Shown: one piece after another, positions 14 through 44,210 of the stretch
Layout of the letters: each line of letters opens with the position of its first letter
How positions within the stretch are numbered: position 1 is the first letter of the stretch
Source of the DNA: a virus
Virus record (IMG/VR): IMGVR_UViG_3300019888_000008
Span: 1 to 44,210 of that record
Direction: 5' to 3' (one strand)
Length of the DNA stretch: 44,210 nucleotides
The notes under the pieces: generated by a model
Databases searched by the model: none
What the model saw: the letters and a program-made list of their open reading frames with translations, nothing else
Told to the model about the DNA's origin: nothing
Program-made: the position numbers and the translations under genes

Positions 14-139
14 CCGAGCCCCTGTCTTGGTTTCTAGCCGAAATATTCCCGTGATCTGGGATTAGTTTCGGTATAACTATTCACGGACTATTCATCGCGC
101 TATTCAGGACTATTCATCGCATGAATACAGTGAATAGTT
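14..139. repeat. Left copy of 126-bp terminal direct repeat
   Basis: Bases 14-139 recur without a difference at 44085-44210. The first 13 bases of the window do not match the bases before the second copy, so the identity starts at base 14 rather than at the very end. This fits a circular genome assembled with an overlap, or terminal redundancy. The physical ends cannot be told from sequence alone. Confidence 0.9.
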
Positions 140-8899: not shown

Positions 8900-9174
8900 T
8901 GATGCGATTTAAGATCATGCCGGACGGGGCCGAGGCTTTCGAAGTCGAGGCCACGTCGCGCGACCTGTCGTTTTGGGAGCGGACCGTTAAGGGCGCGAGT
9001 CTCGGCTCCATTAGCGAGAACCCGCGCATGTGCGACCTCGAACACATCGCCTATATCGCCTGCAAGCGTCGGGCCGGTTACAGCGGGACGCTCGATGACT
9101 TCCGCGCGAGTGCTGATGTCAAGCCGCTCGATGACGACGAATCCGAGGCGGGGCCTACCCAAACGGCTCCCTGA
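8899..9174 (+). CDS. Tail assembly chaperone (G-like)
   Basis: A 91-residue protein between tube and tape-measure genes. It contains SFWERTVKGASLGSISENP and LEHIAYIACKRRAG, then an acidic tail, as in actinophage tail assembly chaperones that coat the tape measure during assembly. ATG 8899 overlaps the preceding stop (TGATG). The gene ends in TGATG with the next small gene, which lies in the -1 frame, the usual G/G-T arrangement. Confidence 0.75.
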   Translation: MMRFKIMPDGAEAFEVEATSRDLSFWERTVKGASLGSISENPRMCDLEHIAYIACKRRAGYSGTLDDFRASADVKPLDDDESEAGPTQTAP

Positions 9175-9305
9175 TGAGGGCCGTGGTTGCGCTGGCAATG
9201 GCGACAGGAATAAGCGTTGATACCTGGTTGGCCGGCAGTGACCAGGACCTTGATACGGCCCTAGAGCTCATGGCGGAGCAGGCTGAGCAGGCGCGAAAGA
9301 GGTGA
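9174..9305 (+). CDS. Second tail chaperone segment (T-like), 43 aa
   Basis: ATG 9174 overlaps the stop of the first chaperone and opens a 43-codon frame, beginning MRAVVALAMATGISVDTW and ending EQAEQARKR. Its character and place match the downstream half of the lambda G-T pair. The -1 frame is open upstream to 9135. A GGGG at 9150-9153 is the only weak slip candidate; no canonical XXXYYYZ heptamer is in the right phase. Coupled re-initiation is therefore as likely as frameshifting. Confidence 0.65.
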   Translation: MRAVVALAMATGISVDTWLAGSDQDLDTALELMAEQAEQARKR

Positions 9306-22554: not shown

Positions 22555-22580
22555 TACCGAGATCCTTCCGAGGTCGGATA
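22555..22580 (-). repeat. Dispersed GACCTCGGA repeat, copy a
   Basis: This 26-base element is identical to the reverse complement of 37466-37491. Read on the minus strand it follows CGACCTCGGA-N5-CTCGGTA. It lies in the convergent gap between the late operon and the leftward operon, just past the terminator hairpins. Confidence 0.8.
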
Positions 22581-25549: not shown

Positions 25550-25791
25550 CAGAGCTGTGGTCCGTGCGCGACGTGGCCGACTGGGCGGACATCTCATACA
25601 ACGCCGCCTACAAAGCGTTGACGCGTTTGCGCGGAAGCCACGGGCTCACCCACGCCGAATACGGTCGGGCTGGCGCGCTGCTATATGACCCTGACGTGGT
25701 GCGCGCCGCATGGCCGCTGCTACCTGGGCGCGGAGCATGGAAACAGCGCCCGGGCGAACAGGAATCCAGTAGTGGAGACAAAACGACGTGA
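25546..25791 (+). CDS. Winged helix-turn-helix DNA-binding protein
   Basis: An 81-residue protein. WSVRDVADWADISYNAAYKAL is a typical helix-turn-helix, followed by a wing-like HAEYGRAGALLYDPDVVRAAW. The ATG at 25546 was preferred to the upstream in-frame start because homologous HTH proteins begin just before this helix. It leads the operon of transfer-like genes and may regulate it or act at a transfer locus. The C-terminal tail is polar. Confidence 0.65.
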   Translation: MTELWSVRDVADWADISYNAAYKALTRLRGSHGLTHAEYGRAGALLYDPDVVRAAWPLLPGRGAWKQRPGEQESSSGDKTT

Positions 25792-26410
25792 CGTCATCAC
25801 CTGGTGCGGGCTGGCCGTTGTAGGCGCGGCCGCCGCCGCGCTCAGCTTCACCGCGCTCGACGAGCTCGCACAACTGTGCGGCATCCGACTGCACTACCTC
25901 CTACCGGTCACCGTGGATGTTTTCGCGGCCACCGCCACCCGGATTTGGCTGCGCGCCCGCGCACACCCAGACGCCGTCGCCTACGCGCGCTCAGCGGCAT
26001 GGTGCGCCATCGTGGCCACCATCGCCGGTAACGCGCTGCACGGCCAGCTCACCAGTGCCCACCGGTTGCCGTCGTGGTGGCTGGTGGTCGCCGTCGCCGC
26101 GCTACCGGCCGTCGCGCTGGGTGCGCTCGTGCACCTGGCGGTGCTCGTCGGGCGGCCCGTGGCGGACGCCGGTCAGGCGGAGCTCCCACCGGTAGACCAC
26201 GAGCCGCCGCCGTTTATCCGCCGCCCGTTGGTGCTACCCGCCAGCGACGAGGTTCTCATCGCTGACCTGCGAGTGTGGGCGGTCGACCACGGTGGGATAC
26301 CGCCCGTTGATGCGATCAGATTGGGCTACGGAGTGGGCACCACACGGGCGTCGCGGCTGCGCGACATCGTCACCGCAACCCCTGTCAACGGAACGGTGGT
26401 GAACCGGTGA
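25772..26410 (+). CDS. DUF2637 membrane protein
   Basis: A 212-residue protein with four hydrophobic segments at about residues 12-30, 40-58, 70-85 and 100-125. The pattern AALSFTALDELAQLCGI and then LLPVTVDVFAATATRIWL is that of DUF2637, a family common beside FtsK-like genes on actinobacterial plasmids and AICEs. The cytoplasmic C-terminus has SDEVLIADLRVWAVDHGGIP and GVGTTRASRLRDIV, a likely HTH. The GTG at 25772 has AGGA upstream and overlaps the previous gene by 20 bases. Its stop overlaps the next gene (GTGA). Confidence 0.75.
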   Translation: METKRRDVITWCGLAVVGAAAAALSFTALDELAQLCGIRLHYLLPVTVDVFAATATRIWLRARAHPDAVAYARSAAWCAIVATIAGNALHGQLTSAHRLPSWWLVVAVAALPAVALGALVHLAVLVGRPVADAGQAELPPVDHEPPPFIRRPLVLPASDEVLIADLRVWAVDHGGIPPVDAIRLGYGVGTTRASRLRDIVTATPVNGTVVNR

Positions 26411-26577
26411 GCGACTGGTTGGAGTGGCTGATAGCGCTGGGCATCACGCTGGCCGTGGGTGCCCTGATCTGTGGTGGCGCACTGGTGTGGATGGAGGTGA
26501 CGCTGCGGTGGGGCCGTAGCCGTCCACTACCGCCGATGATCAACACTCTCGAGCGCGAGAGGGGTGGCGCACGATGA
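26407..26577 (+). CDS. Small single-pass membrane protein, 56 aa
   Basis: GTG 26407 overlaps the DUF2637 stop (GTGA) and the end overlaps the FtsK start (ATGA), so the 56-codon frame fits the operon. SDWLEWLIALGITLAVGALI followed by CGGALVWMEV forms one membrane segment; the tail is basic with PPMINTLERER. Small membrane proteins in this position are typical of actinobacterial transfer operons. Confidence 0.65.
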   Translation: MSDWLEWLIALGITLAVGALICGGALVWMEVTLRWGRSRPLPPMINTLERERGGAR

Positions 26578-28643
26578 CCATCGCACTGCCCGACGAGGGC
26601 GACGACGAGGTTTACGACGCCGAGATCGTGGAGCTGCCCGACCGGCCGCCACTCCCGATCGCCACCGGCACCGAGCTGTCGGTGCTGCCCTGGCAGGCCG
26701 ACCTGCCGCAGCGTCGGCCCGTGGTGGCCCCGTGGCTGCGGCAGAGCGATCAGCGGGTGGCCGCTGTCCGCCACGTCGTCGGCCACGGCATCCACGTGGC
26801 GAAATACCACGTGGTCCGTGCCCCGCTGTACACCGCGCGCACCGCCGCCATGGCACCGCGCGGCCTACTGCGGGTGGTCGTGACCGCCGGCCGCTGGGCC
26901 TGGGATGTGGAGCAGGCCCCGTTGCGGGCGCAGGCCGGTCAGCGCGGCGACGTGACCGCGTACCGGGCGCTACGCAAAGACCGAGTGAACCGGGCCCGCA
27001 CAGCGGCCATCCTCGCCGCTGGCGGCCTGCTGCTGGCGGCCTGCGTCGTGCTGCTCGCCCCGCCCTGGCTGCGGTGGGCGCTGCTGGCGGTGCTGCTCGG
27101 CGTGCTGGGCAAGCTCGGCGCCCGACCCGACCGACCACTGATCACACCCGCCGTGGTGCCCAACGGCAAACGCAAACTCAGCTATGGGATCGTCACCGAC
27201 GCGTTTTTGGACGCCAAACTGTGCACAACAGATCGGCCGATCACCTTCGCCACACCCATTCACCGCGACTCCAACGGATACACGGTCATCATCGATCTGC
27301 CGGGAGGTCGCACCGCCGACAAAGCGATCAGCATGCGCGACGAGATCGCCTCCGGACTCGACGTGGACGAACGGCAGGTGTTCCTCTCCCGCGTGCGGGG
27401 CGCGTCCGGTTCCGCCCGTCGAGTGGACTTGTGGGTGTGCGATGTCGACCCGCTGACCATCCCCGCCGGACACACCGCACTGTTGGACATGGAGCGGGTG
27501 AATTTCTGGCAGCCGTGGCCTTTCGGTAAGAACGAGCGGGGCGCTGATGTCGAACTGTGCATTCTGTGGGCCGCAATGCTGATCGGCGCGATCCCGCGCC
27601 GTGGCAAGACGTTCGTGGCACGGCTGGTCGCCCTCGCAGCCAGCTTGGATCCCCACGTTGACCTCTACATATTCGACTTCAAGGGCTCCCCGGACTGGGT
27701 GCCTTTCCGTCAGGTCGCACACCGGATCTTCCACGGTGACCGGCCCGATCCGGACACCGGAATACACCCGGTGGGCGCGCTGTTGGACACGGTCAATGAG
27801 TTGTTGGAGGAGGTTGACCGGCGCAACCGGCTCATGCGCACGCTGCCCGCTGACATCTGCCCCGAGGGAAAGCTGACCGAGGAATTGTCGCGCGCGAAAG
27901 GCTATGACCTACACCTGAAAGTGCTGGTGATAGACGAGGTTCAGCGCGGTTTCACCAACCGCGACTACGGCGACGAACTAGAGATCGCCCTGACCGATCT
28001 GGTCAAAGCCGGTCCGAGTGCGGGAATCATCACGGTGGCCGCCACCCAGAAACCGGACGCGAAGTCGACACCTACAGGTTTCAGGGACCAATTCGGGGTG
28101 CGGTTCGCGCTCTACGTCACCACGCGGGACGCCAGCGAGGCCGTGCTCGGCGCCGGCGCGGGCGGTGAAGGTCTGCACGCGCACCGACTGCCACCCAACG
28201 CCCCAGGTGCCGGACTGCTGCGCGGAACCGGTGACGCGGCCATCGCGGGCGGCATCGTGCGCACCGGGCTGGCCAACCAAATCCACGCCGAACAGATCTG
28301 CGCGCGGGCGCGGGTGCTGCGCGAAGGCGCCGGGACGCTGGCCGAGATGGCACTCGGCGTGCAGGTGTCCGCCACACCGGCCACCTACAGCGTCGGCGCC
28401 GACCTGCTCATGGTGCTGGCCGAAGACAAGGCACACAGCGACGTGCTGTGCTCGCGGCTGGCGGAACGTTGGCCGGACCGATACGCCGGTTGGCAAATCT
28501 CGCAACTACACGCGGCACTGAAACCGTTCGGTCTGCGTCCGCGCCAGGTTTGGGCGGACTCCATTGATGGCGGCCAGAAAAATCGCATGGGCATTTTGAG
28601 AAGTGAACTAGTCGAGAGGTTGGACGCTCCACATGGACCGTGA
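26574..28643 (+). CDS. FtsK/SpoIIIE (TraB/TraSA-like) DNA translocase
   Basis: A 689-residue translocase. Residues 143-181 hold two hydrophobic stretches (membrane anchor). The motor spans about 205-590: Walker A GAIPRRGKTF (338-347), YIFDFKG (365-371), Walker B VLVIDEV (450-456), and TVAATQKPDA, typical of FtsK/TraSA. Residues 608-685 form a winged helix like FtsK gamma. In Streptomyces plasmids and AICEs such proteins move double-stranded DNA between mycelial cells after binding short repeats. Its company (HTH, DUF2637, small membrane protein) is that of a conjugative element, not of a phage. A partition or packaging role is the alternative. Confidence 0.9.
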   Translation: MTIALPDEGDDEVYDAEIVELPDRPPLPIATGTELSVLPWQADLPQRRPVVAPWLRQSDQRVAAVRHVVGHGIHVAKYHVVRAPLYTARTAAMAPRGLLRVVVTAGRWAWDVEQAPLRAQAGQRGDVTAYRALRKDRVNRARTAAILAAGGLLLAACVVLLAPPWLRWALLAVLLGVLGKLGARPDRPLITPAVVPNGKRKLSYGIVTDAFLDAKLCTTDRPITFATPIHRDSNGYTVIIDLPGGRTADKAISMRDEIASGLDVDERQVFLSRVRGASGSARRVDLWVCDVDPLTIPAGHTALLDMERVNFWQPWPFGKNERGADVELCILWAAMLIGAIPRRGKTFVARLVALAASLDPHVDLYIFDFKGSPDWVPFRQVAHRIFHGDRPDPDTGIHPVGALLDTVNELLEEVDRRNRLMRTLPADICPEGKLTEELSRAKGYDLHLKVLVIDEVQRGFTNRDYGDELEIALTDLVKAGPSAGIITVAATQKPDAKSTPTGFRDQFGVRFALYVTTRDASEAVLGAGAGGEGLHAHRLPPNAPGAGLLRGTGDAAIAGGIVRTGLANQIHAEQICARARVLREGAGTLAEMALGVQVSATPATYSVGADLLMVLAEDKAHSDVLCSRLAERWPDRYAGWQISQLHAALKPFGLRPRQVWADSIDGGQKNRMGILRSELVERLDAPHGP

Positions 28644-28995
28644 AGTTTTTATCTACATTAAAATTCGAGACGTTAACAGCGAACCGGAAACCACGACGCC
28701 CGCACGCGATCTGATTGCAGACACGCTTGCCGCAATGGGAAGCGATCAGCAATGTCACTCCGACGCGCTCTGCGCACGGTTGAGCATGATCTCGCCGCAA
28801 TACGCAGGCTGGTATCCGCGTTCGTTCGCTGGCGCGCTCGCAGCGCACGGCGTGGTGACGCGCCAGATTTGGGGACCGTGCATCGAGAGCGGAACCATGA
28901 AAAATCGGTACGGAGTGACCCGTCAATCCCTAGAGGCGGCGCTGCGTGAGCGACCACGCGCCTCTAATCTTAGAGATCACTCTAGAGCGGGCTGA
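28633..28995 (+). CDS. Stand-alone winged-helix copy of the translocase C-terminus
   Basis: A 120-residue protein whose residues 25-105 align with residues 608-685 of the translocase: HSDALCARL against HSDVLCSRL, YAGW in both, RQIWG against RQVWA, and KNRYGVTRQSL against KNRMGILRSEL. It therefore looks like a duplicated, separate DNA-binding domain. ATG 28633 lies 11 bases inside the end of the translocase gene. It may compete for, or extend, the recognition of the same DNA repeats. Confidence 0.75.
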   Translation: MDREVFIYIKIRDVNSEPETTTPARDLIADTLAAMGSDQQCHSDALCARLSMISPQYAGWYPRSFAGALAAHGVVTRQIWGPCIESGTMKNRYGVTRQSLEAALRERPRASNLRDHSRAG

Positions 28996-28998
28996 ACC

Positions 28999-29073
28999 AT
29001 GGATGACCTGCGCAAACGTGTTGCCATAGAGCTTAGGGCGACGAGCACTCAGCAGGCCCGGGGACGCCCGTGA
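28999..29073 (+). CDS. Possible 24-aa minigene
   Basis: ATG 28999 follows the previous stop by 3 bases and opens 24 codons, MDDLRKRVAIELRATSTQQA and a short end, ending in a GTGA overlap with the next gene. Spacing suggests translation as a coupling leader. No family. Confidence 0.3.
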   Translation: MDDLRKRVAIELRATSTQQARGRP

Positions 29074-29330
29074 CCACGTTAATGCCGTTCCTGGCCGTAC
29101 TAGCGTCCCCAGACGGTTCTGGCCAGCAGGTCGAAACCGACGCCACGAGCGGTCTGACGACGCTGGCGCTGATCGCGCTGGCACTAGTCGCCTGGTGGGT
29201 CGTCAAGCGTGTGCTCTGGCCGGAGCGGCCGTGCCGGAGCCCGAAATGCAAGGGTGGGAGGATCTACGCACCCGACGGAAAGTCGTGGAGACGGCACGGT
29301 AAGTGCAACGGAAAGGGCTACATCGACTGA
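29070..29330 (+). CDS. Membrane-anchored zinc-knuckle protein
   Basis: An 86-residue protein. The N-terminal segment (TTLMPFLAVLAS) may be a weak signal or second helix, and residues about 28-48 (LTTLALIALALVAWWVVKRV) form a membrane anchor. The cytoplasmic end has CRSPKCKGGRIY and RRHGKCNGKGYID, a degenerate DnaJ-type zinc knuckle common in small proteins of actinobacterial mobile elements. It closes the transfer-like operon. Confidence 0.65.
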   Translation: MTTLMPFLAVLASPDGSGQQVETDATSGLTTLALIALALVAWWVVKRVLWPERPCRSPKCKGGRIYAPDGKSWRRHGKCNGKGYID

Positions 29331-29820: not shown

Positions 29821-30240
29821 CTAACCTGCGTCACCCTTGGTATCACGTAGTGCCACCCGCTGCGCTAACCACGCTAAAATCTGGACCTGCTCGGACTCGT
29901 CGCGGTTGCCGAGATACTCATACAGATCCGCCATGTCGTCACCGGTACCGGCCAGCATCACGCCGTTATCCCGCATGGCCGCGATACCTAACGCTCGCCG
30001 GTCCACCCCTAAACCGTGCGCTACCCGGTCCAGTGTCCACGGGTCGTAACGGCGCCCCTGTGGCCCCACTGGTTTGAGGTACATGCTCAGCGTCTGGCGC
30101 GACACGCCCGTCTTACGTTCCGCGTCCCTAATCCCCACGGTGTCAACGTCGGACCGACGCGAACCTGGCTGTAGGCCCGCCGCACGCAGTAGAGCTCCGA
30201 CCGCTGACGGGCGCGTGGTCCGACCTGGCGGTTCAGTCAT
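29821..30240 (-). CDS. Repressor-like helix-turn-helix protein
   Basis: A 139-residue protein. IRDAERKTGVSRQTLSMYLK is a clear helix-turn-helix, followed by WTLDRVAHGLGVDRRALGIA, and an acidic C-terminal part (DDMADLYEYLGNRDESEQVQ) that could dimerise. It is divergent from the excisionase-like gene, the classic place of a phage or plasmid repressor. The ATG at 30240 was chosen over the earlier in-frame start because it begins nearer the conserved part and has GGGAG upstream. The operator-like repeats lie between the two genes. Confidence 0.72.
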   Translation of the reverse strand: MTEPPGRTTRPSAVGALLRAAGLQPGSRRSDVDTVGIRDAERKTGVSRQTLSMYLKPVGPQGRRYDPWTLDRVAHGLGVDRRALGIAAMRDNGVMLAGTGDDMADLYEYLGNRDESEQVQILAWLAQRVALRDTKGDAG

Positions 30241-30290
30241 GGTGTGGCTCCCGGTTCGAGGAGTCGAGGCATGCCGGTCAGGTCGCATCA

Positions 30291-30352
30291 TTGTCGCAGG
30301 ACGTCAATTTGTCACTCAAACCTTGACTTTTTGTCGCAGGATGGTGCAGTGT
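30291..30352. promoter_or_regulatory. Divergent promoters with paired operators
   Basis: TTGTCGCAGGA occurs at 30291-30301 and 30331-30341, 40 bases apart (about four turns). A rightward promoter TTGACT (30323-30328), N18, CAGTGT (30347-30352) holds copy 2 in its spacer. A leftward TTGAGT-N18-GACAAT candidate has its -10 overlapping copy 1. Each copy would block one promoter, consistent with control by the adjacent repressor-like protein. Confidence 0.6.
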
Positions 30353-30616: not shown

Positions 30617-31140
30617 CAGCGCCACGTCGATCGCGGGTCAAATCGTCACTCGACTTTGTACCGAAAGCTCTAGCCAGAGACGAGCGACTGCTTCGGCTGA
30701 TTGAGGAGCTCTACACCTATGCCCGTGATCTAAATCACACCCTGGTGGCGCTGTTGAATACGCACGGCGGTTTCGCGGCCACCCCGGAACCGCGCCGGAT
30801 CTGGGTGGACCTCGATCGCGGTGCGTGGCGGGCCGTGCTCGACATGGTCGAGCAGCGCCCATCCCTGATCAGACTTGAGCACGACGCGACCGGCGACCCC
30901 GACCCGCTGCGCTCTTTCCTCGAATCCGGTGACGACCTCATGGTGGCCCCACCCACCGAGCTCCACCGCTGCACCCACCCGGCCGGTAGCGCACTCACCA
31001 TCGGAGCGTGGGAGAAACAGCATGCCGCTGGCCTCGCGGACATCCGCCAAGGACTGCACGTGGTAAAGGACCTCGGAACCGCCTCGGTAAAGGACCTCGG
31101 AACCGCCTCGGTAAAAGAGGTGAGCCCCGATGCTGGGTGA
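30613..31140 (+). CDS. Hypothetical early protein ending in VKDLGTAS repeats
   Basis: A 175-residue protein starting at ATG 30613 (ATGA overlap). It is basic at the start, then helical (LLRLIEELYTYARDLNHTLV), with a central segment around EPRRIWVDLDRGAWRAVLDM. The end is unusual: two 24-base tandem repeats encode VKDLGTAS twice, then VKEV. The repeats belong to the dispersed GACCTCGGA family. No family recognised for the main domain. Confidence 0.65.
   Translation: MTAPRRSRVKSSLDFVPKALARDERLLRLIEELYTYARDLNHTLVALLNTHGGFAATPEPRRIWVDLDRGAWRAVLDMVEQRPSLIRLEHDATGDPDPLRSFLESGDDLMVAPPTELHRCTHPAGSALTIGAWEKQHAAGLADIRQGLHVVKDLGTASVKDLGTASVKEVSPDAG
31063..31110 (+). repeat. Tandem GACCTCGGA repeats, two 24-bp copies (d)
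   Basis: The unit GTAAAGGACCTCGGAACCG plus CCTCG occurs at 31063-31086 and 31087-31110 with no difference, and a third begins (GTAAAAGAGG). Unit length is 8 codons, so the frame of the host gene is kept. Confidence 0.85.
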
Positions 31141-41290: not shown

Positions 41291-42088
41291 ATGAAAATCT
41301 ATGGTATCGACCAGTCCTATCAGCGTACCGGAATCTCCCGTATCGCATTCGGTATTGACGGCGATGTCAACGCGGTATCTCGCTCAGTATCGCCGTGGAA
41401 AGCGATAGATAATCCATACAGTGCGCGTCATGTTGCGATGCACGACCATGCCTATAACATCACCAATATGGTGGGTGACGACGCGGTATTGGCCGTCATG
41501 GAGGGGCCATCGTATGGTTCGAAAGGTAAAGCAGTGTGGCAGCTGTCTGTGTTACTGGACACCGTATTCGGCTACCTGGTGGAGCGCGGCATTCCCGTCG
41601 CGGTATGTCCTCCAACTACGCGCGCTAAGTGGGCTACCGGTAAGGGGAATGCCGCTAAGGATCTGGTCTGTATCCACGTTGATAGACTGTGGCCGAATGT
41701 GGGTAAAAACAACGATGAATTGGACTCGTTGGCGTTCGCTACAATGGGTGCGCAGTGGATGCGATGGAATGTGCCGTCGCTGGCCCGACACCGCGCCGCG
41801 CTGGCTGGTGTCGAGTGGCCGGACATGAAGACGCTGAGAGGTTCTGTGCGGCCGTCAGGGGCCGTCCCCGGTGTCATTACCCTCGGAGCCGGTGACAATC
41901 GGCTGGCGACCCCAATGAGCCCGTGCGGCACAGTCCCGGCGGGCAGGCTTCCCAGCACGGAAGTAAGTGACCTCGGAGCTTCCTCGGTAAGCGACCTCGG
42001 AGCTTCCTCGGTAAGCGACCTCGGAGCTTCCTCGGTAAGCGAGCTCCGGAGTCTCCGCTACGAGATGCGGGCCGAGCCAGTCAATTGA
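41291..42088 (+). CDS. RuvC-like Holliday junction resolvase
   Basis: A 265-residue protein. MKIYGIDQSYQRTGIS (Asp7), VLAVMEGPSYG (Glu71), CPPTTRAKWATGKGNAAKDL and NNDELDSLAFA (Asp142, Asp145) give the four acidic residues of the RuvC/RNase H fold. It resolves recombination junctions before packaging. Residues beyond 165 are variable, and the end holds three VSDLGASS repeats encoded by tandem DNA repeats of the GACCTCGGA family. ATG 41291 follows AAGGACCACG. Confidence 0.82.
   Translation: MKIYGIDQSYQRTGISRIAFGIDGDVNAVSRSVSPWKAIDNPYSARHVAMHDHAYNITNMVGDDAVLAVMEGPSYGSKGKAVWQLSVLLDTVFGYLVERGIPVAVCPPTTRAKWATGKGNAAKDLVCIHVDRLWPNVGKNNDELDSLAFATMGAQWMRWNVPSLARHRAALAGVEWPDMKTLRGSVRPSGAVPGVITLGAGDNRLATPMSPCGTVPAGRLPSTEVSDLGASSVSDLGASSVSDLGASSVSELRSLRYEMRAEPVN
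41963..42034 (+). repeat. Tandem GACCTCGGA repeats, three 24-bp copies (e)
   Basis: The unit GTAAGCGACCTCGGAGCTTC plus CTCG occurs at 41963-41986 (one change), 41987-42010 and 42011-42034, followed by a degenerate fourth (GTAAGCGAGCTCCGGAG). It is in frame with the resolvase gene, 8 codons per unit. Confidence 0.88.
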
Positions 42089-43888: not shown

Positions 43889-44108
43889 TTATGCAGTGTA
43901 TATACAGCATGGTTATACAGTGCGATGCATAGCGGCCTGCATGATCATGTTGAGCATGATCATGATGTACGTATATGCAGGTCAAACCTATCAGACAGTG
44001 ACATCGATCATGAGCATAAGCGCAGGTCAAAGGCTTGTGATCACAGACAGTGAGTTTTTCGGGGATTACAGGATATCCACAGGCCCGAGCCCCTGTCTTG
44101 GTTTCTAG
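43881..44108 (+). CDS. Met-rich membrane protein at the junction
   Basis: A 75-residue protein. GTG 43881 overlaps the previous gene by 8 bases. It has one membrane segment (CIAACMIMLSMIMMYVYAG, about 16-34) with an unusual run of methionines, partly because the DNA carries two CATGATCATG palindromes. The stop (44106-44108) lies inside the terminal repeat. Base composition is A/T-richer than its neighbours. Function unknown. Confidence 0.5.
   Translation: MNNYAVYIQHGYTVRCIAACMIMLSMIMMYVYAGQTYQTVTSIMSISAGQRLVITDSEFFGDYRISTGPSPCLGF
43940..43964. repeat. Two CATGATCATG palindromes
   Basis: The 10-bp perfect palindrome CATGATCATG occurs at 43940-43949 and 43955-43964, 15 bases apart, near the genome junction. 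It may be a protein-binding site for packaging or regulation, though it also encodes part of a membrane segment. Confidence 0.5.
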
Positions 44109-44210
44109 CCGAAATATTCCCGTGATCTGGGATTAGTTTCGGTATAACTATTCACGGACTATTCATCGCGCTATTCAGGACTATTCATCGCATGAATACA
44201 GTGAATAGTT
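44085..44210. repeat. Right copy of 126-bp terminal direct repeat
   Basis: Identical to 14-139, including the CTATTCA array and the first part of the holin leader. On a circle the membrane-protein gene would end here and the holin operon would follow. Confidence 0.9.

Follow-up and report, generated by a model that had tools for sequence, protein, structure and literature searches.

The closest described systems to the locus examined here are the TraB/TraA translocases of Streptomyces plasmids and of actinomycete integrative and conjugative elements (AICEs), for instance those of pSVH1 and pWTY27 (PMC3583192, PMC3218068, PMC4170104). In pWTY27 the clt locus, made up of 16 bp of the traA 3' end and the 159 bp behind it, is essential for transfer and is bound by TraA (PMC3583192), and the same source reports that TraB of pSVH1 reads 8-bp repeats via helix 3 of its C-terminal winged helix. 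DUF3631 proteins are known as the RepAM replication protein of AICEs (PMC3218068). Single FtsK_gamma genes have also been described in phages; they are thought to be acquired from the host, and that report assigns them no role (PMC8190038). Here we describe a locus in IMGVR_UViG_3300019888_000008, a virus record of IMG/VR of 44210 bases that was analysed as a whole (the window), in which the gene for an FtsK/SpoIIIE-like translocase, F, is directly followed by a small gene, S, that encodes a separate copy of the translocase C-terminal winged-helix domain. F is of the same general kind as the TraB/TraA translocases but scores far below the cut-off of NCBIfam plasmid_TraB (17.6 bits, cut-off 800), and behind it stands S instead of the CTAG array that, as we report below, many of its relatives carry in the place where pWTY27 has clt (PMC3583192).

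S and the C-terminal domain of F

F is recognizable as an FtsK/SpoIIIE ATPase from its match to PHROG 1358 (Table 1) and from its plasmid relatives, which are annotated FtsK/SpoIIIE; its PF01580 score (17.5 bits) lies below the cut-off of 24, and a sequence search of F against the PDB gave no match. The small gene behind it is a real open reading frame (ORF), as an earlier note on this DNA had read it, and the motifs HSDxLCxRL, YAGW, RQ(V/I)W and KNRxG are all common to S and the C-terminus of F. Residues 20-100 of S align with residues 599-679 of F (identity = 30/82, 37%; blastp e-value = 1e-13 against F alone), the domain within S spanning about residues 24-107. The Smith-Waterman score of the two proteins is 129, compared with a mean of 33 and a maximum of 56 over 2000 shuffles of S. 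When S was compared with a 34-row domain-family profile built without it, hhalign gave a probability of 99.2 (e-value = 1.1e-19) over 84 columns, and hmmsearch recovered S with an e-value of 2.5e-22 from a profile that had S among its rows. S matched nothing in Pfam, PHROG or NCBIfam. The comparison of predicted folds that the earlier note had proposed came out in its favor: S and the F C-terminus, modelled with AlphaFold (pLDDT 84.2 and 87.0, respectively), have the same helix and strand order of a winged helix, although both models were built on common alignment rows, so that their agreement is not independent proof.

Family of the domain

The earlier note had described the domain as gamma-like and knew of no described case. 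The separate gene for a translocase C-terminal domain family beside a translocase is upheld; the gamma label is not. None of 35 domain sequences matches PF09397 at an e-value of 0.1 or below, and a PF09397 search that matched 8 of 14 control genomes found nothing in the window. When profiles were compared by hhalign with those of seven actinobacterial gamma domains, neither the family (probability 0.1) nor S (0.2) resembled them, and we reject FtsK_gamma for both. Fold searches of the PDB returned generic winged helices only, with Z under 7, PadR and MarR being among the weak matches; no FtsK gamma entry was prominent among the matches listed.

The 34-row profile without S instead aligned with seven DUF3631 C-termini (probability 95.7, e-value = 8.7e-9, over 78 columns), and 11 of the 35 domain members match PF12307 (DUF3631), the best with an e-value of 4.8e-7. 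S itself has no hit to PF12307 (hhalign probability 0.2). On the sequence comparisons, the translocase domain family is related to the C-terminal part of DUF3631 and not to FtsK_gamma. The likeness to RepAM is that the C-terminal module of DUF3631 aligns with the F C-terminal domain family; S differs in having no ATPase part and no DUF3631 match of its own. With regard to precedent, the single FtsK_gamma genes of phages are already in print (PMC8190038). They resemble S in that a DNA-reading winged helix of a translocase occurs outside a translocase, in a phage, and differ in belonging to PF09397 and in not being coupled to a translocase of the same element.

A CTAG array at the ftsK stop codon

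Our searches with F found 44 matches in 72556 plasmid records, nearly all actinobacterial, none in 50697 phage records, 466 stretches of genome contigs and 88 stretches of viral contigs, some of which may be mislabelled integrative elements; the best 80 of the 466 and the best 80 of the 88 were kept for comparison. The nearest relative of F, at 62% identity, is encoded on the Pseudonocardia oceani plasmid pPoc2 (L010) and again on the chromosome (L011), and the signature AHSDV(L/I)C marks a clade of L010/L011, L204, L205 and L090. Around the ftsK stop, within 230 bp, CTAG occurs 6 times in L010 (array at 9074-9184), 9 times in L204 (2343-2478), 7 times in L205 (2913-3048) and 7 times in L090 (8960-9130). 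The window has 0 CTAG from -30 to +200 of the F stop, and a clt-like array of the CTAG form is therefore absent there, its usual spot being occupied by S.

This array is widespread in the family. At least five CTAG lie within -30 to +200 of the stop in 100 of 166 rows with the domain, and none or one in 62; by locus, after removal of the duplicates L011 and L137, the count is 99 of 164 against an expectation, taken from the rest of each locus, of 0.1 per locus. Of nine other palindromic tetramers, only CGCG reaches five at the ftsK stop, in 13 loci, and a second window of such CTAG density elsewhere in the locus was seen in only 3 of 164. The spacing is fixed (6, 16, 6, 12, 31 and 7 bp), with CTAGGTCTAG and CTAGACCTAG pairs, and the median distance from the ftsK stop to the inner CTAG triad is 36 bp.

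Further, the array follows the type of C-terminal domain. Among 162 FtsK loci, 93 combine a VW wing with the array and 60 have another wing and no array, compared with 2 VW loci without it, 6 other-wing loci with it and 1 locus left unclassed. The two VW loci without an array are F of the window and L139, where the text pattern probably matched another place; L059, with a non-VW wing and an array, reads TWG. On FastTree trees the array state changes 5 times on the domain tree versus 13 times on the tree of the ATPase part, and these tree counts outweigh the raw counts because the loci were drawn by F-family searches and many are near-identical.

An independent scan used the exact 20-base pattern CTAG-2-CTAG-12-CTAG-2-CTAG-8-CTAG in place of a 14-base pattern that was too loose for 2.9 million contigs. 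It found 73 places in 45 of 390 Pseudonocardiaceae genomes, and the reversed control found 0. Of these places, 42 lie within about 50 bp of a same-strand domain hit (coordinates read by eye). In viral contigs, 19 of 21 pattern hits fall close to the stop of a domain ORF, between 4 bp ahead of it and 17 bp past it; in the viral loci L328 and L336 the array does not lie at such a stop.

Because the array shares the position, size and repeat nature of clt, and tracks the domain rather than the motor, we consider it probable that the CTAG array is the clt of this translocase family, in which case the C-terminal domain would be the part that reads it. Several observations weigh against this assignment. 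For 31 of the 73 places there was no domain hit beside the array among the matches listed, and in the 26 of these that were fetched (L348-L372) neither an FtsK ATPase nor the C-terminal domain lies next to the array. The main confounder is that the array and the 3' end coding for the domain adjoin, so that recombination would move them together without any recognition between them. A related ORF lies downstream of the array in 12 of 27 loci (25 FtsK-less ones plus viral L328 and L336), and the two of these 12 ORFs that were tested are both phage integrases; an HTH_17 protein and a DUF3987 protein lie beside other FtsK-less arrays. Were the array clt, its FtsK-less copies could belong to mobilizable elements that use the translocase in trans. 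It is also possible that these copies serve otherwise, as an origin or as a target of the integrase or of its partner. They are not simply origins of a DUF3631 replication protein, because the P. oceani and L077 genomes carry the array without a DUF3631 match. A literature search aimed at CTAG in work on AICEs, clt and Streptomyces found no mention of it among the papers listed; this is no proof that it is unpublished, and we present the fixed-spacing array at the ftsK stop as a new observation of this analysis.

By a 60-base matrix, the most array-like site of the window lies over the last codons of S. With anchored matrices built from relatives only, the site at 28964 ranks 1 of 88302 as a 60-mer, 6 of 88212 as a 105-mer and 3 of 88378 as a 22-mer, the place scored having already been noticed. 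It scores -1.9, real arrays scoring at least 29.7. An nhmmer array model, whose alignment was poor and which the matrices replaced, missed the site, and the degenerate pattern that describes it (Table 1) was composed after it had been seen. These results are suggestive only, and the site is at most a degenerate remnant of an array.

Distribution and origin of S

The conservation of the pair that the earlier note had looked to was not borne out: the nearest relatives carry ftsK without S, which is absent behind ftsK throughout the AHSDV(L/I)C clade and in the Pseudonocardia alni plasmid pPaSha2 (L005). A homologue of the Cys-rich gene that follows S in the window lies directly 3' of ftsK in L005, L010, L204 and L205, starting 111-136 bp past the ftsK stop in the last three, and in L090 an unrelated 289-aa ORF stands between the two genes. 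A search with S (e-value of 1e-5 or below) matched 68 of 386 Pseudonocardiaceae genomes; apart from G123:C113, with a frame of 266 aa, every match listed lies in a frame of 580 aa or more. At class level 28 of 394 genomes match, and the sole short frame, in G466 (192 aa), reaches the contig end. The domain profile matches 215 of 390 family genomes, and the best ~155 matches, which were listed, include a single short frame internal to its contig that has no FtsK nearby, in G228.

Several candidates for a stand-alone S were rejected. G228 (L170) has a 109-aa C-terminal frame with no FtsK nearby, which we read as a remnant. The matches in G083, G017 and G303 lie within frames of 317-336 aa, and G303 also has FtsK sequence. 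G123:C113 and G255:C45, with matches 527 and 10 bases from the contig start, were judged by coordinates alone to be cut by the contig edge. Weak tblastn matches in Mycobacterium phage Tote (H1, e-value = 0.5) and in a Streptomyces plasmid (H3, e-value = 0.2), the protein of which scores as a sigma-70 factor, were not counted as relatives. A parallel is found in L132 (9066-9821) and L167 (8238-9371), where a protein encoded directly behind ftsK also holds a second domain copy; it differs from S in being fused to T5orf172/MUG113 and in having domains only 20-24% identical to S.

The earlier note had called F the parent of S, and that S came from F's own domain is neither demonstrated nor rejected. 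By alignment score S is closer to other translocases (L204, 163; L085, 160) than to the domain of its neighbor F (125). Domain trees place S on a long branch, and the best free tree of 55 rows pairs it, with weak support, with the L085 domain of Kribbella (89/84). Placing S inside the clade of F, L010 and L090 gave a higher likelihood for these 55 rows (+3.10; approximately unbiased (AU) test, p = 0.567). After addition of L204 and L205, S with the F clade was 4.45 lower (p = 0.311) and S with F alone 6.60 lower (AU p = 0.225), and the 55-row test joining S to F's own domain gave an AU p of 0.494; none of these is rejected. A recent tandem duplication of F's own domain is not supported, the free trees placing S by L085 and the forced trees not being rejected. 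As far as sequence can tell, S derives from this translocase domain family, possibly from the clade of F, and not demonstrably from F itself.

Of 21 columns with conservation of 90% or more in array-bearing relatives, S retains 14, compared with 18 in F of the window and 16 each in L010 and L090; S also keeps 5 of the 10 columns conserved at 75-90%. The GC content at third codon positions (GC3) is 0.674 in the domain part of S versus 0.681 in the F domain.

The element and its other features

The element is a phage-like genome from an actinobacterium. Virion genes for terminase, portal, major head, tape measure and tail proteins, along with an endolysin gene, lie at 1306-21998 of the window, and the early region encodes a Prim-Pol/AAA protein, an exonuclease and a RuvC-like resolvase. 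The short module that holds F and S lies between the two and also comprises a DUF2637 protein, a 56-aa ORF and the Cys-rich protein (Table 1). A conjugation-type module (DUF2637, FtsK/TraB-like; 25772-29330) thus sits within a genome that holds a full set of virion genes. The pPaSha2 record (L005, CP052773.1) is a 41.9-kb circular plasmid in which DUF2637, ftsK and the Cys-rich gene follow in the same order; it also has a holin gene and is possibly a phage-plasmid. An exact direct repeat of 126 bp occurs at both ends of the IMG/VR record (window 14-139 and 44085-44210), from which the genome may be circular or terminally redundant.

Table 1. Features of the tra-like module and its surroundings, in positions of the window
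Feature	Positions	Strand	Basis
DUF2637 membrane protein, upstream tra partner	25772..26410	+	PF10935, e-value = 3.3e-9 on 25685-26407; gene start at 25772 is our choice
Small ORF, 56 aa, between the DUF2637 gene and F	26407..26577	+	ORF list
F, FtsK/SpoIIIE-like (TraB-like) translocase, 689 aa, Walker A GAIPRRGKTF	26574..28643	+	PHROG 1358, e-value = 2.5e-20
F C-terminal domain, DUF3631-C-like winged helix, VW wing type	28383..28634	+	alignment, model, profiles
S, free-standing copy of the translocase C-terminal winged-helix domain, ATG start, 120 aa	28633..28995	+	ORF, homology, model
Overlap of S start and F stop, 11 nt, ATGGACCGTGA	28633..28643	+	sequence
Candidate degenerate core remnant of the CTAG array, CTAA-TC-TTAG-N8-CTAG, over the S 3' end	28964..28985	+	relatives-only matrices
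Small membrane/Cys-rich protein, next gene of the module	29070..29330	+	zinc-ribbon-like by eye
Helix-turn-helix (HTH) protein	29821-30291	-	library scan of the window

The earlier note had also proposed GACCTCGGA repeats as the target of F and S. The window holds 7 exact copies of GACCTCGGA and, with one mismatch allowed, 25 against 15.2 expected, a number that 2 of 100 shuffles reach. Tandem arrays of GACCTCGGA/CTCGGTA lie inside two ORFs (31062-31115 and 41963-42051), where they encode 8-aa VxDLGxxS repeats, and paired sites lie between genes at 22555 and 37474. Among the relatives, pPoc2 has three single copies, and L090 and L005 have none. The distance of the arrays from the tra genes, the location of two of them inside ORFs and their absence from relatives all argue against this target; these analyses gave no link of the repeats to F or S, and they may be operators or sites of another system.

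Discussion

We tentatively favor a reading in which S descends from a translocase 3' end and serves F in trans as a small DNA-binding partner, and regard it as possible without rating it as probable. On this reading the translocase gene would have been one of F's family; S would be co-translated with F through the 11-nt overlap, act in trans on the sites in DNA read by F-type C-terminal domains, and tune where or when F loads, as a helper or as a competitor. Translational coupling of S to F is likely from the overlap, and we infer that this coupling matters, that S, as predicted, binds DNA and that it acts on F. The reading draws on the homology of S to the domain family, its winged-helix model, the invariant columns it retains, its stop-free frame, its GC3 and its overlap with F. 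It draws as well, by analogy, on pWTY27, where TraA binds clt beside its own gene, and on the repeat-reading winged helix of pSVH1 TraB (PMC3583192), and on the second domain copy directly behind ftsK in L132 and L167.

A number of observations count against it. When three F-type domains were decayed neutrally to 40% identity, 14-24% of 500 runs each stayed free of stops, so the open frame of S is weak evidence for constraint (P 0.14-0.24), and S may have diverged while it was still part of a full-length gene. Its first 20 codons are of atypical composition (GC3 0.45), with no similarity detected for them, and no intact stand-alone S ortholog was found in the 386 Pseudonocardiaceae or the 394 class-level genomes. 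The residues of the putative DNA-facing helix differ (SQLHAALKPFG in F, RSFAGALAAHG in S), and the targets of F and S may therefore differ as well.

Several of these points fit the main alternative, that S is a leftover stub. Recombination or partial duplication would then have placed a complete F ahead of what remained of an older translocase gene, its C-terminal end, leaving S and the degenerate CTAG core behind it to decay without function. Its long branch, lack of orthologs and atypical N-terminus are what such a stub would show, and the remnant in L170 is comparable. In relatives the array lies right behind the 3' end coding for the domain, and the best array-like site of the window is at the end of S and not at that of F; this position fits a history in which an older translocase gene ended in S and F came to stand in front of it. 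We nevertheless consider a mere stub somewhat doubtful, given that the frame is intact, the start codon lies exactly at the F stop and most invariant residues are retained.

A role for S in autoregulation of the tra operon, with the translocase domain co-opted as a winged-helix repressor of transcription, is unlikely. The weak fold matches to PadR and MarR regulators would agree with this role, as would the repressor control of tra genes in Streptomyces plasmids, of which KorA/KorB of pIJ101 are reported examples (PMC4170104). S is, however, coupled to F near the end of the tra run, no operator was identified, and the HTH protein of Table 1 is the likelier repressor. A role in phage DNA packaging, for which the terminase, portal, capsid and tail genes of the element and a described small terminase with an N-terminal FtsK_gamma domain (PMC8190038) could be cited, is very improbable, as S is coupled to F, lies ~26 kb from the terminase gene and does not hold an FtsK_gamma domain.

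A more far-reaching scenario, which we hold to be quite unlikely, joins S and the array: the phage lineage would have given up the CTAG array, which almost all related translocase genes of this domain type have behind them, and replaced it in the same place with a free, co-translated copy of the recognition domain, so that recognition would be shared between F and a trans reader with a changed target. Together with the FtsK-less arrays, the pair of domain and array would then form an exchangeable address code for the transfer of double-stranded DNA.

If S, as in the reading we favor, does work in trans, the reading of DNA sites would be separated from the DNA pump, and S would offer a 120-residue handle on the loading of TraB-like pumps, a process poorly understood except in a few Streptomyces plasmids. 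The CTAG array may outweigh S in importance, as it gives a large family of actinobacterial translocases a concrete candidate docking site (clt) that can be tested, and its presence in integrase-bearing elements without a translocase gene suggests that the pump may be borrowed in trans.

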